Shown here: positions 17,392 to 21,957 of the stretch, in pieces
How positions within the stretch are numbered: position 1 is the first letter of the stretch
How the letters are laid out: every line of letters begins with the position of its first letter
Assembly: GCF_004117855.1 (NCBI RefSeq)
Contig: NZ_QWBW01000011.1
Span: 64,023 to 128,022 of the forward strand
Length of the DNA: 64,000 bases
Source: Modicisalibacter coralii
GTDB lineage: Bacteria; Pseudomonadota; Gammaproteobacteria; Pseudomonadales; Halomonadaceae
Direction: 5' to 3'
Program-made: the position numbers and the translations under genes
Notes under the pieces: generated by a model
Database searches by the model: none
The model's input: only the letters and a program-made list of their open reading frames with translations
What the model was told of the DNA's origin: nothing

Positions 17392-17424
17392 CGCCCGCGC
17401 CGCCCCGACGGCGCGGGCGTTTTC
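17392..17424 (+). terminator. Rho-independent terminator
   Basis: cgcccgcgccg (17392-17402) pairs perfectly with cggcgcgggcg (17409-17419) across a 6-base loop, followed by ttttcg. It closes the ABC importer/sulfatase operon and marks the last point of ordinary high-GC sequence before the cassette array. Confidence 0.88.
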
Positions 17425-17478
17425 GTGTAAGCACCGTTCATGCGACGAACTGTCGCTCGACGCCGAACCGCGCTAGGT

Positions 17479-17556
17479 TAAGTATCGTTTGATCTTGCCG
17501 ATACTCCCATAATGACCCTGACGGTGGAGCGTTCATTGCTTCGCCTGGCGGTAGCG
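17479..17556. repeat. Copy 2 of the ~80-bp sequence ahead of the cassette arrays
   Basis: It matches 1052-1130; the best part is 17520-17556 (33 of 37 bases identical). It lies in a 345-bp non-coding stretch between the terminator and the first cassette gene, about 210 bp before the attI-like junction. Confidence 0.65.
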
Positions 17557-17660
17557 TGGGTAAGATCAGGGGGCAGGGGGATTGCGTTAGTTTCAACGCG
17601 CCAGAACTGGCAAAGGCAGCAGGCACGCGAATTCTGCATAACGTGCCGAATTTTTCTTAG

Positions 17661-17772
17661 GATTCTTTTAGAATCAAAAGGTTAAGAGCGAACAGACTGG
17701 CTCGGTAAGATTGTTGAACGCGCCTGCTCGTTAAAGTGGGAAAACGAGCGCGCTATCTAATACCTGTTAGGG
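17661..17772 (+). other. attI-like region at the head of cassette array 2
   Basis: A non-coding, AT-richer stretch leads to tacctGTTAGGGtttATG; GTTAGGG (17766-17772) has the form of an integron crossover core. Upstream are two inverted repeats: gattc/gaatc (17661-17675) and ctcgtt/aacgag (17727-17748). The last 28 bases are alignable with the junction ahead of array 1 (2541-2569). An attI would normally sit beside a divergent intI gene. None is present here or elsewhere in the window, so the call is tentative. Confidence 0.45.
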
Positions 17773-17775
17773 TTT

Positions 17776-18810
17776 ATGCACATGCTCACACCAATGATGG
17801 TTCAGTACCTGGTCGGCCTTTGCTGCTTAAGGCACGACCCAAAAGCTGTCGATGTCACGATCGGGAACCTGGTCTTGGATGAAGCTGCCGGCAAAGAGCG
17901 TGATGTCGATGTGACGGTCACCGTCACTGACTCAAACGGTGAAGTGTCTGCTTTCAAAGCCTCTGAGGTAAAACACGAAGGTAAGCCCTTGGACGTAGTT
18001 GCGGTAGAGCAGCTCATTCTGAAGTTGGCTGACATGCCTAGAGTTACTCACAAAGCTATTTTTTCAACTTCGGGATACACCGATGGGGCTCAGGCCAAGG
18101 CAAAGAGGCACGAAGTAGATCTATACAGCATGCTGCCTTGGGATCGTCCAATAGCAGAAAATTTTCCAGACTTTCCAGGAGTTGGAACACCCGGCGAATT
18201 TTTGGCTCACTTTCAAAGTAGCTTGTTATATTGGGCTGAGTGGCAGAGCTATTTTGTTTCTACTACCGGGCCAGAGTCTTTCTCGTTCGAAGACGAAACG
18301 CCGCTGTTCTCGCCTGAGGGAAAGAATCATCAGCAGTATTCGACGATGCTTGATTATTTGAATGAAGTATTGATGCGATCTACTGGGCTCTTATGTACGC
18401 AAAGTCCCGCCAGTAATGTGCTTAAGACCTTTCCGTACAACATGCACAATGAAGCAGAGGGTTATATGGCTGGGCCCGCTTGGCCGCATACTCATACGCT
18501 TGACCTGTCAAATGACGAGGTTTATCTGCGATTGGAGGGACTTGCCCCGTTCCGCTTGGATTCCGTAACTATTTCAGGTCACTTGCAGTGGCGTAAACGA
18601 GTTATCGAACCACAGTTCCATATCTTTGAACGCGTCAGTGACCAGGCGATTTTCGCGGGTGCGGCAGTAGCTGACTATGGCGTTGATGATGGGCGTATGT
18701 TCGCCATGATTTTTCCAGCCAAGGGGCGTGAAGTCGGAATTCACCGTTTTCAGATACCAGAAAAACAGAGAAACTTGATCCGTGGTCTTAAGATACATAC
18801 ACCGCCCTAA
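17776..18810 (+). CDS. Mrr-like restriction-endonuclease-fold protein
   Basis: 344 residues. The N-terminal third has a PD-(D/E)xK nuclease core: acidic RDVDVTV (D43 or D45), then E64-V-K66 in KASEVKHEG, then the FSTSGYTDGAQAKAK motif (about 96-110) characteristic of Mrr-type restriction enzymes. The rest has no recognised domain and may recognise the target. Mrr relatives cut modified or foreign DNA. The start is ATG 17776, directly after the GTTAGGG core; ATG 17782 has better spacing from aggg. The stop codon lies inside the attC site. This is the first cassette of the array. Confidence 0.75.
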   Translation: MHMLTPMMVQYLVGLCCLRHDPKAVDVTIGNLVLDEAAGKERDVDVTVTVTDSNGEVSAFKASEVKHEGKPLDVVAVEQLILKLADMPRVTHKAIFSTSGYTDGAQAKAKRHEVDLYSMLPWDRPIAENFPDFPGVGTPGEFLAHFQSSLLYWAEWQSYFVSTTGPESFSFEDETPLFSPEGKNHQQYSTMLDYLNEVLMRSTGLLCTQSPASNVLKTFPYNMHNEAEGYMAGPAWPHTHTLDLSNDEVYLRLEGLAPFRLDSVTISGHLQWRKRVIEPQFHIFERVSDQAIFAGAAVADYGVDDGRMFAMIFPAKGREVGIHRFQIPEKQRNLIRGLKIHTPP

Positions 18811-18888
18811 CAATCGCAGGCACAGCGACGGCTTTTTCATTGCGGCTGCGCCTTCATTACAAAGCCGCGCGTGCTGCGGGCGTTAGAT
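18806..18888 (+). other. attC site after the Mrr-like cassette
   Basis: CCTAACAATCG at the stop codon starts the site and GCGTTAGAT (core 18882-18888) ends it. Inside, ggctttttcattgcggctgcg and cttcattacaaagccgcgcg form the imperfect hairpin typical of attC. It is closely related to the sites at 3488 and 21878. Confidence 0.88.
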
Positions 18889-18899
18889 TTTAGGAGTAC

Positions 18900-19334
18900 A
18901 TGTTGAAAGATCGTGTTTTGACTTTGCTACAAAAACTTAGGGGAGAAGTGCCTGGAAATACGTTTACTGGCACTGGAATTGTTGTTTATGATTCTCTTGA
19001 GAGTCTACCTCTATTTTTTATGAGCGATCATTCAAAAGTTGTTGAGGGCGATGTTTATAAAACAATTTTAGAAAGTAGCTTAGCAACAAATCCAAATCAT
19101 GATGGTTTTAACATGATTAATAGTGATTTTGAAATAACTCATAGGAATGTATATTTTGCCCCCCCAATAAATCAAGAAGTAGGCTTTGATAATTGTAAAG
19201 GCTATGGGACTAGGTATGTTGCAGCTTTAATGGGGTCTACAGTATCTGGTGTGTTACTAACTGCTGTTGTCAGTAATTCATATGGGATAGTTATCTTCAA
19301 AGATGGTGAGATTGTCTGGGAAAGCAAGCAGTGA
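18900..19334 (+). CDS. Stand-alone diadenylate-cyclase (DisA_N/DAC)-fold protein, divergent
   Basis: 144 residues with no signal or membrane segment. The order of motifs follows DAC domains such as CdaA: PNHDG (D68, G69; classical DGA, here DGF), then GTRYVAALMG (103-112; classical GTRHRAA, so only the first Arg of RHR remains), then VVSNSYGIVIFKDGEI (123-138; classical VVSEETGxISV). The classical enzyme joins two ATP into c-di-AMP. With the RHR and SEE residues changed, activity or product may differ. ATG 18900 follows taggag. The gene ends GTGA, overlapping the start of the membrane effector gene. Base composition is strongly AT-rich. Confidence 0.7.
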   Translation: MLKDRVLTLLQKLRGEVPGNTFTGTGIVVYDSLESLPLFFMSDHSKVVEGDVYKTILESSLATNPNHDGFNMINSDFEITHRNVYFAPPINQEVGFDNCKGYGTRYVAALMGSTVSGVLLTAVVSNSYGIVIFKDGEIVWESKQ

Positions 19335-19921
19335 TTAATTTATTTTCGATAACAAAGCTTATTGTTGTATTTGCGTTAATTTACTTTTTGATAATCACAG
19401 GCCTAATTTATCTATTGCCAAAAATTGGTATCGACGAACTTAGTGACACTCGCGTCGCTTTCTCTGTCGGTACTGTTTTTGAACTCCTAATAATATACTT
19501 GTTTTCTTCAGGGTGGAGGACGATATGGAAAGCACTCCCTTTGCTTAATAATTTTTTATTTCCTGATTTGAATGGGGAGTGGGAAGCTAAAATACATTGG
19601 AATTGGGGCGGTAAAAGTGGCTGCAAAGACGGTAAGGTTTTTATTAAACAGTCATTTATAAAGTTCAGCGTTGATTTAGTTACTGATGAGTCAGAGTCAA
19701 AAACTCTTTTAGTAAAGCCATTTAAAGACCCTGAGTCAGACCAGGCTGCTTTTTATTATATGTATCGCTCTGAATCAAAGGCAACTAGTTACACAAGCAA
19801 GAATGAACACAAAGGTGCAGCAATCCTACATCTAAGCCATGGAAATCGTAATATGATGTCAGGAAACTACTTTACTGATAGAGAAACCTTTGGATACTAC
19901 GAATTCACGAGAAAAATCTAA
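19331..19921 (+). CDS. 2TM-beta (S-2TMbeta/Cap15-like) membrane effector
   Basis: 196 residues. Two membrane helices (about 10-30, IVVFALIYFLIITGLIYLL, and 46-64, VGTVFELLIIYLFSS) precede a beta-rich domain that opens with FPDLNGEWEAKI (LNGEW at 80-84) and runs to YYEFTRKI. This architecture and the LNGxW motif match the SMODS-associated 2TM beta-strand-rich effectors, typified by CBASS Cap15. On cyclic-nucleotide sensing these disrupt the inner membrane. Start GTG 19331 overlaps the stop of the cyclase-like gene (GTGA), so the two are translated together. No CD-NTase gene is nearby. The family call rests on architecture and motif only. Confidence 0.68.
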   Translation: MINLFSITKLIVVFALIYFLIITGLIYLLPKIGIDELSDTRVAFSVGTVFELLIIYLFSSGWRTIWKALPLLNNFLFPDLNGEWEAKIHWNWGGKSGCKDGKVFIKQSFIKFSVDLVTDESESKTLLVKPFKDPESDQAAFYYMYRSESKATSYTSKNEHKGAAILHLSHGNRNMMSGNYFTDRETFGYYEFTRKI

Positions 19922-19970
19922 CAAGGAAATTCAGGTGACGCCTGCGGTGCACCTGATTTAGGCGTTATGC
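19916..19970 (+). other. attC site after the cyclase/effector cassette
   Basis: A short site starting TCTAACAAGG at the stop codon and ending GGCGTTATGC (core 19964-19970). caggtg and cacctg form the inner arms around acgcctgcggtg. About 55 bp long, a classical 59-base-element size. Confidence 0.88.
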
Positions 19971-19976
19971 ACAATT

Positions 19977-20531
19977 ATGACTGAAGACGATTACAAAAAA
20001 CGGTTGGTCAACCTGCTTCAAGATGACTTCGAACTTTTTCCAGAGTACGGAGGAGCTTGGCCGACCGGAGAAGTGGTCTATTTAGATTTCTTCTGTAAGC
20101 CCAAGCAACACGTGATCGATCAGGGCTTTTCAATCGATTGTTTTGCTGTGGAAGTGAAGTCACCCGATGTGGGGCGTGAACCTATAAAGAAATTGCTGGA
20201 TTGTGTTCTGCAATCATACTCTTACACGCTTTGTGATTTTAAAGGGCAGCGGCCAAAATTCACCTTAATTTACCCTGAGCCTCGCATGTTTTTTTGTGCT
20301 CAGAAGCCAGAAAAATACACAGGGCAGCACAACCCAATGAATGAGCCAGAGATCGATATAGTAAAGCGGCTTATGCAGCGGGCTAATGTCGGTGAGCTCG
20401 TTGAGGATAAGAACTTTGGGTACGAATTCCGTTTTTCCAGAAACAGAATGTATGACCCTGTAAGAGGACCCAGTAAAGTGGCAAATTTAGGTAGCGTTCG
20501 TCGTATCGGATCGCGGAAAGTGAAGGCATAA
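19977..20531 (+). CDS. Putative PD-(D/E)xK nuclease-fold protein
   Basis: 184 residues. The pattern YLDFFCKP (D37), FAVEVKSP (E59-V-K61) and KKLLDCVLQSYSYT (Q79, Y81) gives the D...ExK...Q order of the PD-(D/E)xK nuclease superfamily, in the branch that binds a partner rather than a classical restriction enzyme. No other domain is visible; the C-terminus is basic (SVRRIGSRKVKA). It is a complete single-gene cassette, starting 6 bases after the upstream core and with its stop inside the next attC. A nuclease role in defence or repair is inferred. Confidence 0.6.
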   Translation: MTEDDYKKRLVNLLQDDFELFPEYGGAWPTGEVVYLDFFCKPKQHVIDQGFSIDCFAVEVKSPDVGREPIKKLLDCVLQSYSYTLCDFKGQRPKFTLIYPEPRMFFCAQKPEKYTGQHNPMNEPEIDIVKRLMQRANVGELVEDKNFGYEFRFSRNRMYDPVRGPSKVANLGSVRRIGSRKVKA

Positions 20532-20612
20532 CAAGGCCATTAAGGTTATTCCGGGCCGATGGCCCTGCACCGGACGCCCCTGTCGGGGCGCCGCTTATGG
20601 CTGGCGTTAGCT
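20526..20612 (+). other. attC site after the PD-(D/E)xK cassette
   Basis: Starts GCATAACAAGG at the stop codon and ends GGCGTTAGCTC (core 20606-20612). Inside are the inverted repeats gggccgatggccc and ggacgcccctgtcggggcgcc. About 87 bp. Confidence 0.88.
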
Positions 20613-20626
20613 CTACGGGACTGCTT

Positions 20627-21331
20627 ATGAACAAAGATCTCATGGATTTATACGCAAGCAGATGGGGTGTCCTTAGCTCGCGTTTGAGCGAGTTGGATTC
20701 TAGCTGCTACACGAATCCATTCCTTATATCCGTTGACGAACATCGTTTAGAAAAGGCCAACTATCACATCATGATCTTTGGTCAAGAGACGAAGGGCTGG
20801 CACGACGGCGCCGGAAAAGTGAGGCAACCTAGCGAATTAATGGCCGGTTACGACAGTTTTTTCTGTCAAGGTAACTTTTACCGCGGATACGGAAGGAGCT
20901 CATTTTGGAAAGCGTTTCGATATTTCGAAAAAGAATTGGCGAAATATGAAAGTGATTTAAATATTTATTTCACTTGGAATAACATTAATAAAATTGGCCG
21001 GCCTAATGGGAAGACTGGCGTGGATTCGAAAGCGCGGATGGTTGAACGAGAATGTTTTCGAGTAATAGAAGATGAGATACAAATTACCCATCCAGACTTA
21101 GTGATATTCCTGACGGGGCCAAATCGTGACTCGGACATACGCTTCAGTTTTGACGAAGCGAGCATGAATGCAGCGACGCCTTCCCACTCCCAGCGCGCAA
21201 TATCGTTTGTAAGTGCGCCGACTTTACCCTCAACCAATGTTCGAACATATCACCCATCTTATTTCGGTGGCTTCAATCGGTCTCGCAGAGCTGTGCTCGA
21301 TATAGTAGCTAATTCGGCGACGCAAAGATGA
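20627..21331 (+). CDS. Putative uracil-DNA-glycosylase-fold-like protein
   Basis: 234 residues from ATG 20627 (MNKDLMDLYASRWG). YHIMIFGQETKGWHDG (about 46-61) resembles the motif 1 loop of UDG-superfamily enzymes, and VRTYHPSYFGGF near the C-terminus resembles their HPS motif 2. Between them lies ITHPDLVIFLTGPN, a typical core strand with loop. No iron-sulfur cysteines are seen. Such proteins can remove uracil or act on modified phage DNA, but the match is motif-level only and another Rossmann-like hydrolase is possible. It is a single-gene cassette; the first bases lie just after the GTTAGC core. Confidence 0.5.
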   Translation: MNKDLMDLYASRWGVLSSRLSELDSSCYTNPFLISVDEHRLEKANYHIMIFGQETKGWHDGAGKVRQPSELMAGYDSFFCQGNFYRGYGRSSFWKAFRYFEKELAKYESDLNIYFTWNNINKIGRPNGKTGVDSKARMVERECFRVIEDEIQITHPDLVIFLTGPNRDSDIRFSFDEASMNAATPSHSQRAISFVSAPTLPSTNVRTYHPSYFGGFNRSRRAVLDIVANSATQR

Positions 21332-21435
21332 AAGCTAACAATTCGCTGCAGTTGACCGCCCAAAGCGCTGGCGCGCTTTGGTCTCCCTCCGCAGCTTTTG
21401 GCTGCTCCGGTGGCAACTGAGCTTAGGCGTTAGAT
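21332..21435 (+). other. attC site after the UDG-like cassette
   Basis: Starts AAGCTAACAATTCG and ends TTAGGCGTTAGAT (core 21429-21435). A long site of about 104 bp with inverted arms: caaagcgctggcgcgctttgg is itself a hairpin, and gttgaccgccc / gtggcaactgag pair imperfectly. Confidence 0.88.
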
Positions 21436-21459
21436 GCGGTACAAACGAAAGGAACATGC

Positions 21460-21864
21460 ATGAACGTTACCCAAGCAAAGAATTCTTCTCGTAGCTTCCA
21501 TCTCGCATGCCAGCGTACCCTCGAACAACGCCAGACAAGTCATGGACAGGTCGAAATCCTCATGGTTCCGGGTGTTGTATGTGCAGCGTTTTCCATTGAG
21601 CTTGGAATAAAGGCTATAGCACTGGGAGAAGGGACACAGCCCACAGGGCACAAACTAGACAAATTGTTTGGAACCCTAAGTGCCCCTGAGCAAGACGCAA
21701 TCAAGGAGTCGATCGGCCTACCGAATACGGATTTCCAAAAAGAACTTGAAGCAGCGGCCGGTGCATTTGAGGAATGGCGATACATATACGAAGGTACAGA
21801 GACAGTATCGGCGAATCTCCAGTTTCTACAGAGATTTTCTAGTGCCGTGCAAAGTCGGCTGTGA
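21460..21864 (+). CDS. HEPN-like domain protein
   Basis: 134 residues. FSIELGIKAIALGEG, GHKLDKLFGTLSAPEQ and FEEWRYIYEGTE form the helical signature seen in small HEPN-like proteins (SxELxxKA ... GHxLxxLF ... WRYxYE). Some HEPN proteins are RNases in toxin-antitoxin or abortive-infection systems. The catalytic RxxxxH is not obvious here, so activity is uncertain. No antitoxin accompanies it. It is a single-gene cassette: ATG 21460 preceded by gaaagga, with attC on both sides. Confidence 0.65.
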   Translation: MNVTQAKNSSRSFHLACQRTLEQRQTSHGQVEILMVPGVVCAAFSIELGIKAIALGEGTQPTGHKLDKLFGTLSAPEQDAIKESIGLPNTDFQKELEAAAGAFEEWRYIYEGTETVSANLQFLQRFSSAVQSRL

Positions 21865-21877
21865 TCAGCTCGCACCT

Positions 21878-21957
21878 CGCAATCACAGGCACTGCGACGG
21901 CTTTTCCGTTGCGGCTGCGTCTCCATTCCAAAGCTGCGCGTGCTGCGGGCGTTATAT
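21878..21957 (+). other. attC site after the HEPN-like cassette
   Basis: gcaatcacaggcactgcgacggcttttccgttgcggctgcg leads to gcgtgctgcgggcGTTATAT (core 21951-21957). The opening core reads cacctcgcaatc rather than TAACAATC, so the first half-site has decayed. It is otherwise very similar to 18806-18888. It lies 14 bases beyond the stop codon, unlike the other sites. Confidence 0.75.

Follow-up and report, generated by a model that had tools for sequence, protein, structure and literature searches.

A predicted Mrr_cat-type nuclease gene as the first cassette behind an attI site in Modicisalibacter coralii

Introduction

In Mrr of E. coli the winged helix comes first and the nuclease last. Plasmid 'restriction endonucleases' that carry the Mrr_cat domain (PF04471), such as WP_217005078.1, WP_235765227.1 and WP_269598950.1, are single genes in which an N-terminal Mrr_cat-type domain is followed by a C-terminal part without a Pfam family. 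Defence genes are also kept in integrons: Darracq et al., in 'Sedentary chromosomal integrons as biobanks', reportedly describe anti-phage defence genes in integron cassettes.

The gene described here lies in a 64,000-nucleotide stretch of Modicisalibacter coralii DNA (the window), and its predicted protein, P0001, shares features with each of these systems. Its nuclease is of the same type as that of E. coli Mrr, while the order of domains differs, the nuclease of P0001 being N-terminal and a Pfam search of the protein finding no winged-helix family. With the plasmid enzymes it shares the single-gene organisation, an Mrr_cat-type domain at the N-terminus whose D, E and K are in register, and a C-terminal part outside Pfam, but the two C-terminal regions cannot be aligned (hhalign probability at most 0.5% across 14 proteins). 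Like the cassettes of Darracq et al., it is a defence-type gene stored in a cassette array; unlike them, it stands in an array with no recognisable intI and is unmatched by PADLOC models. A literature search in which subscription journals are thinly covered gave, among the matches listed and judged by title and start of abstract, no description of this nuclease gene; with the same coverage it gave nothing on a Halomonadaceae integron integrase and, for Halomonas integrons or attI, only seemingly unrelated work.

Table 1. Features of the cassette array, in window coordinates
Feature	Position	Strand	Remarks
attI, family-wide integron type	17609..17766	+	core GTTAGGG 17766-17772; nhmmer model match 17609-17769
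Cassette 1 (nuclease gene and attC)	17767..18882	+	identity to Billgrantia zhangzhouensis (L007): cassette 98.3%, leader 64.1%
Nuclease ORF (protein P0001)	17776..18810	+	344 codons, no internal stop; likely start 17782
Predicted Mrr_cat-type PD-(D/E)xK nuclease domain	17782..18135	+	about residues 3-120; D45, E64, K66
C-terminal region without family match	18136..18807	+	residues 121-344, about 224 residues; conserved
attC of cassette 1	18805..18888	+	bottom strand folds
Cassette 2	18883..19964	+	DAC-domain gene 18900-19334 overlapping 2TM/Cap15 effector gene 19331-19921
Cassettes 3-5	19965..21951	+	ORFs 19977-20531, 20597-21331, 21460-21864; no family match

Domain structure of the protein

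Profile comparison shows the first ~120 residues of P0001 to be a PD-(D/E)xK nuclease domain of the Mrr_cat type. The assignment rests on this comparison. Pfam's own model stays below its cut-off: PF04471 scores 17.9 bits over residues 39-117 of P0001, against a gathering cut-off of 21, and matches three of the six family members at E ≤ 10. When the six-row alignment of the family was compared by hhalign with three proteins above the PF04471 cut-off, E was about 7e-6, the matches covering residues 40-120, 42-119 and 63-119 of the family alignment, respectively. D45, E64 and K66 aligned with an invariant D, E and K in all six rows examined, two of which come from the cassette 1 nuclease family, and the Mrr-type core that the first-pass annotation had placed in the first third of the protein is thus borne out. 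Against 14 Mrr_cat-type proteins, the N-terminal part gave hhalign probabilities of 76-89% in six, 45-51% in two and 0.6-32% in six. Conservation of the ExK pair in homologues had been set beforehand as a test, and E64 and K66 are kept in all four family sequences that reach them (the window and loci L007, L009 and L010, described below), a count that leaves out L008, which begins past these residues, and L011, which holds the end of the protein only. The motif TSGYTDGA is present in the same four sequences, and L008 has TSGYTNGA.

The gene follows the attI core directly, its first ATG (17776) lying 3 bases downstream of GTTAGGG, as had been noted earlier together with its first position in the array. 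At the same time, we infer that the second ATG (17782, M3) is the likelier start, since the frames of L009 and L010 align from 17782 and the AGGG of the core would then stand at the usual Shine-Dalgarno distance. The stop codon of the ORF falls within the attC of cassette 1.

The remainder of the protein had been said to belong to no recognised family, and this view holds: residues 121-344 have no significant match in Pfam, NCBIfam, PADLOC, PHROGs or PDB sequences, and no end-to-end match of P0001 to a known Mrr family was found. One family member matches phrog_2870 at 0.37, which is not significant; of the other Pfam families, two are matched, each by one of the six members (0.012 and 0.26). 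AlphaFold models were too poor for fold assignment, both for the whole protein with the six rows (mean pLDDT 54.5, pTM 0.38) and for residues 119-344 (mean pLDDT 40.1, pTM 0.36). A Foldseek search with the poor whole-protein model against PDB and BFVD returned nothing at E ≤ 0.001; its top matches, none of them significant, include nucleases (EndoMS, prob 0.98, E 0.044; AF1548, 0.85, E 0.3; MspJI, 0.63, E 0.5; a phage 'restriction endonuclease', prob 1.00, E 6e-3) together with unrelated proteins (half of UvrC, a metallo-beta-lactamase, Argonaute, NUDIX).

A C-terminal part without family match is common in the Mrr_cat-type class; in five other Mrr_cat-type proteins that were scanned, Pfam gave nothing over cut-off downstream of the nuclease domain. 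We considered whether the C-terminal region of P0001 is the common tail of the Mrr_cat plasmid enzymes and found no support for this, the hhalign probability staying at or under 0.5% for every one of the 14 proteins. The strand pattern that the two share was seen by eye only. With tail profiles built from 13 proteins (L080 left out), column-shuffled controls scored as high in 9 of 40 cases for all 13, in 1 of 40 for 12 and in 3 of 40 for four. For a tail profile of eight proteins picked after the pattern had been seen, 0 of 40 shuffled controls did so, yet the probability was 1.2%.

Homologues and their surroundings

A pattern scan of a collection of 84,980 genomes, which detects close relatives only, found five loci. 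L007, in Billgrantia zhangzhouensis, holds the same cassette in first position; L008, in a Halomonas MAG, lacks the N-terminal part and has its own, different attC-like end; L009, in Paraburkholderia oxyphila, is full length, with no attC seen; L010, in a MAG, is broken near residue 217; and L011, where its contig begins, keeps the final 43 aligned residues. Genome searches were similarly sparse, with 1 of 398 genomes in the phylum (the gene's own genome only), 2 of 201 in the family, 3 of 275 in the family by profile, and 1 of 144 in the genus of L009, this one being L009's own; the family searches meet the L007 genome again and not a further case, and G978 in the profile search is probably the genome of L008. 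In the class search 4 of 369 genomes matched; besides the gene's own genome there were three partial matches (18-24 bits), one of them an accepted Mrr_cat protein (P0007) and the other two taken for chance. Five scans of viral_contigs with the nuclease family found none, and neither plasmids nor phages had a tblastn match to P0001 at E ≤ 0.01. The C-terminal 219 residues have one plasmid match, in a replication protein (E 0.9), and three of the four weak plasmid matches of the L009 protein are annotated as restriction endonucleases (E 2-5, not significant).

Over residues 1-120, 121-235 and 236-344, respectively, identity is 85%, 79% and 86% to L008 and 81%, 45% and 68% to L009; to L010 it is 77% and 67% over the first two parts. 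On these few sequences the middle part (121-235) changes fastest, as a specificity region might. The dN/dS ratio against L008 is 0.05 over 278 codons (0.03-0.08 across the three regions), and against L007 it is 0.25, rising to 0.89 in residues 1-120, on few counts (9 synonymous, 8 non-synonymous); against L009 and L010 synonymous sites are saturated. Residues 121-344 are, by this measure, under purifying selection. Relatives that are 65-98% identical in other genera, together with the ratio against L008, confirm by comparison that the ORF is not a chance one.

The surroundings of the homologues vary. The L010 homologue begins 24 bp past a DrmC-like ORF (1.2e-132); that ORF in turn lies downstream of a phage-type integrase and of a PDC-S39 gene (5.8e-120). 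In L007 an Old-like ATPase-TOPRIM gene (3.1e-91) is the second gene downstream. The neighbours of L009 are an ankyrin protein (a PDC-M72A match in the repeats only) and a transposase fragment, with no clear defence gene next to it. The GTTAGGA that precedes the L010 gene could mark it as a cassette and could just as easily be the Shine-Dalgarno sequence of a gene that follows the DrmC-like one, and we do not claim a cassette there.

Mobility of cassette 1

The bottom strand of the cassette 1 attC folds with a z of -4.26, and 0 of 200 shuffles did as well, as would be expected of the attC of a gene cassette. The other four putative attC sites gave z values of -1.11, -2.12, -3.45 and -0.13, the last being degenerate, and the attC pattern matches for cassettes 1-4. 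Sequence similar to the cassette 1 attC occurs in 7 plasmid records.

Comparison with L007 separates the cassette from its leader. The cassette is identical at 1097 of 1116 positions and the attI leader at 98 of 153, with 84% identity between the two genomes over one chromosomal stretch (picked regardless of coding strand). The core sites are where the similarity among relatives breaks off, again as in a gene cassette. The nuclease gene is in first position in both genomes and the chromosomal neighbours differ, with a sulfatase gene in the window and a 459-aa ORF in L007. At the level of DNA identity, this comparison shows that cassette 1 moved independently of its attI, and it offers a clean natural case of one cassette behind two diverged attI sites.

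Cassettes ending in attI-derived sites are reported for mobile integrons in PMC12901181. On Salinivibrio proteolyticus plasmid NZ_CP114585.1 (L065, 2486-3355), an Mrr_cat 'restriction endonuclease' gene begins ~20 bp past a sequence 91% like the cassette 1 attC, and this nuclease may travel as a cassette too.

The attI site and the apparently missing integrase

We searched for the leader element with an nhmmer model of 160 positions built from 17 copies. In 13 of 25 intI loci the element sits upstream of intI at a distance of ~50 bp (47 to 59 as measured from alignment ends). Of the other loci, L055 has a split copy and L063 one truncated where its contig ends, and ten lack the element, eight of which have a distant intI (45-60% identity), the other two being L060 and L062. 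Among the 17 aligned copies, 15 have CTGTTA at the end of the shared sequence; past this point the copies differ, as judged by eye, except for L007 with the same cassette. What had been described as an attI-like core is, on this comparative evidence, a genuine attI.

The window leader matches the region from intI to the first cassette of Billgrantia zhangzhouensis, where an apparent insertion sequence (by eye) splits the leader from an intI that has a stop codon. In Modicisalibacter coralii itself no intI over cut-off was found in the genome (74 contigs, 99.99% complete), so that a complete integron is not seen there; five partial intI matches (best 86 bits) are of a kind that appears in 14 of 14 control genomes. 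The integron appears to have lost its integrase. Across the family, the attI element, or just its last ~65 bp, matches 136 of 201 genomes (at a loose E ≤ 0.1, no more than three candidates being scored in nearly every genome), and intI is over the family cut-off in 43 of 201. Dispersed attI copies without integrase seem to be common in the host's family.

Several smaller features accompany these copies. Window positions 17538-17558 match, over 21 bp (90%, E 0.002), the sequence directly past the intI stop in L018, and the match recurs upstream of many intI-less attI copies, perhaps as the trace of a deleted intI. An inverted repeat, GCTCGTT...AACGAGC (17715-17760), occurs in many intI-less attI copies and, by eye, not in the copies of B. 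zhangzhouensis. In L070 (2200-2041 and 9549-9392), L071 (2999-2840 and 11070-10934) and L072 (3759-3600 and 5935-5789), two attI copies share a strand at a spacing of 2-8 kb, and the stretch holds no intI; G489, G453 and G474 have no intI at E ≤ 1e-30 among the matches listed. Downstream of a second, partial attI copy on another contig of the M. coralii genome (L069, 2084-7209) lie a PDC-S31 match (8.7e-50) and an ORF of 1272 aa that matches PD-Lambda-4_A weakly (0.0017). Rfam at gathering scores had no match in the whole window.

Function

Taken together, P0001 is, by a cautious reading, probably a rare stand-alone, single-gene nuclease of restriction type that acts against phages and has spread as a cassette. 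In favour we count the nuclease domain with its three catalytic residues, the conserved C-terminal region, the mobility of the cassette, and the company the gene keeps: the DrmC-like/PDC-S39 island in L010, the Old-like gene in L007 and the 2TM CBASS-type effector in the window. Against it we count that PADLOC gave 0 families at E ≤ 1 for P0001 and no matching system model, that L009 has no clear defence neighbour, that the L010 copy is broken near residue 217, and that the few differences from L007 give a ratio of 0.25 (0.89 in residues 1-120).

In such a restriction nuclease the C-terminal region would recognise a feature of invading nucleic acid, for instance base modification, a particular structure or a phage product, and on recognition the N-terminal nuclease, probably dimeric, would be licensed to cut foreign DNA. 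As the first cassette behind attI the gene would be the best transcribed of the array if the leader holds a promoter; a promoter scan of 17400-19000 gave one match against 1.4 expected, inside cassette 2, and none in the leader. The core site may at the same time supply the ribosome-binding sequence. Since the cassette has no second gene, the host would have to be protected either by the recognition rule itself, as with Type IV enzymes, or by tightly limited activation.

The first-pass annotation is supported in part: its nuclease, attI, first cassette, ExK pair and lack of a family for the rest all stand, and the new targeting domain it proposed for that rest is the part we hold less firmly. 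Residues 121-344 could be an undescribed recognition domain, the gene then being a single-gene restriction system with its own target rule that moves between integrase-less integrons as a first-position cassette and is elsewhere joined to a DrmC/PDC-S39 island; we put this forward as a tentative picture and have real doubts about it. If phage were restricted, the set of defence genes that integrons keep would gain a single-gene nuclease, and its C-terminal region could reveal a new rule of recognition.

Two of the defence neighbours, the 2TM effector in the window and the Old-like gene in L007, are of the abortive kind, and they would suit a toxin-like nuclease whose C-terminal region senses infection and whose nuclease cuts the whole cell's DNA or RNA. 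We nevertheless think it unlikely that P0001 works this way, as the cassette has no antitoxin or partner ORF and the annotation of the Mrr_cat class in plasmid records is that of restriction enzymes. The gene order of L010, behind the DrmC-like and PDC-S39 genes, suggests a part of a larger system that is inactive or weak when alone in a cassette; with one such case only, and no such neighbours in the window, L007 or L009, this is improbable. There is just as little reason to expect a cargo gene for regulation or repair, or a non-cutting sensor: cassettes carry many functions, and PF22722, the Pfam family of inactive relatives, matches two of five comparison proteins below cut-off, but it has no match in P0001, and the catalytic residues are intact in the family sequences that reach them.

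Other cassettes of the array

A GFA family gene closes the array, with no attC seen behind it. The cassette 3 ORF at 19977-20531 (184 aa) shows by eye a D...EVK stretch and could be another PD-(D/E)xK nuclease; it has no match in Pfam, PADLOC or NCBIfam and nothing useful in PDB. In cassette 2 the DAC domain, of diadenylate-cyclase type, matches PF02457 with 32.4 bits (cut-off 27) and the cyclic-dinucleotide effector matches PF18153 with 75 (cut-off 31.2) as well as the PADLOC 2TM effector (4.2e-34). From its domains, the pair resembles those of CBASS or Panoptes, with a different cyclase. The word 'diadenylate' is absent from the Panoptes paper (PMC12657218). Relatives of the DAC protein, at 29-37% identity, occur in six plasmid records.
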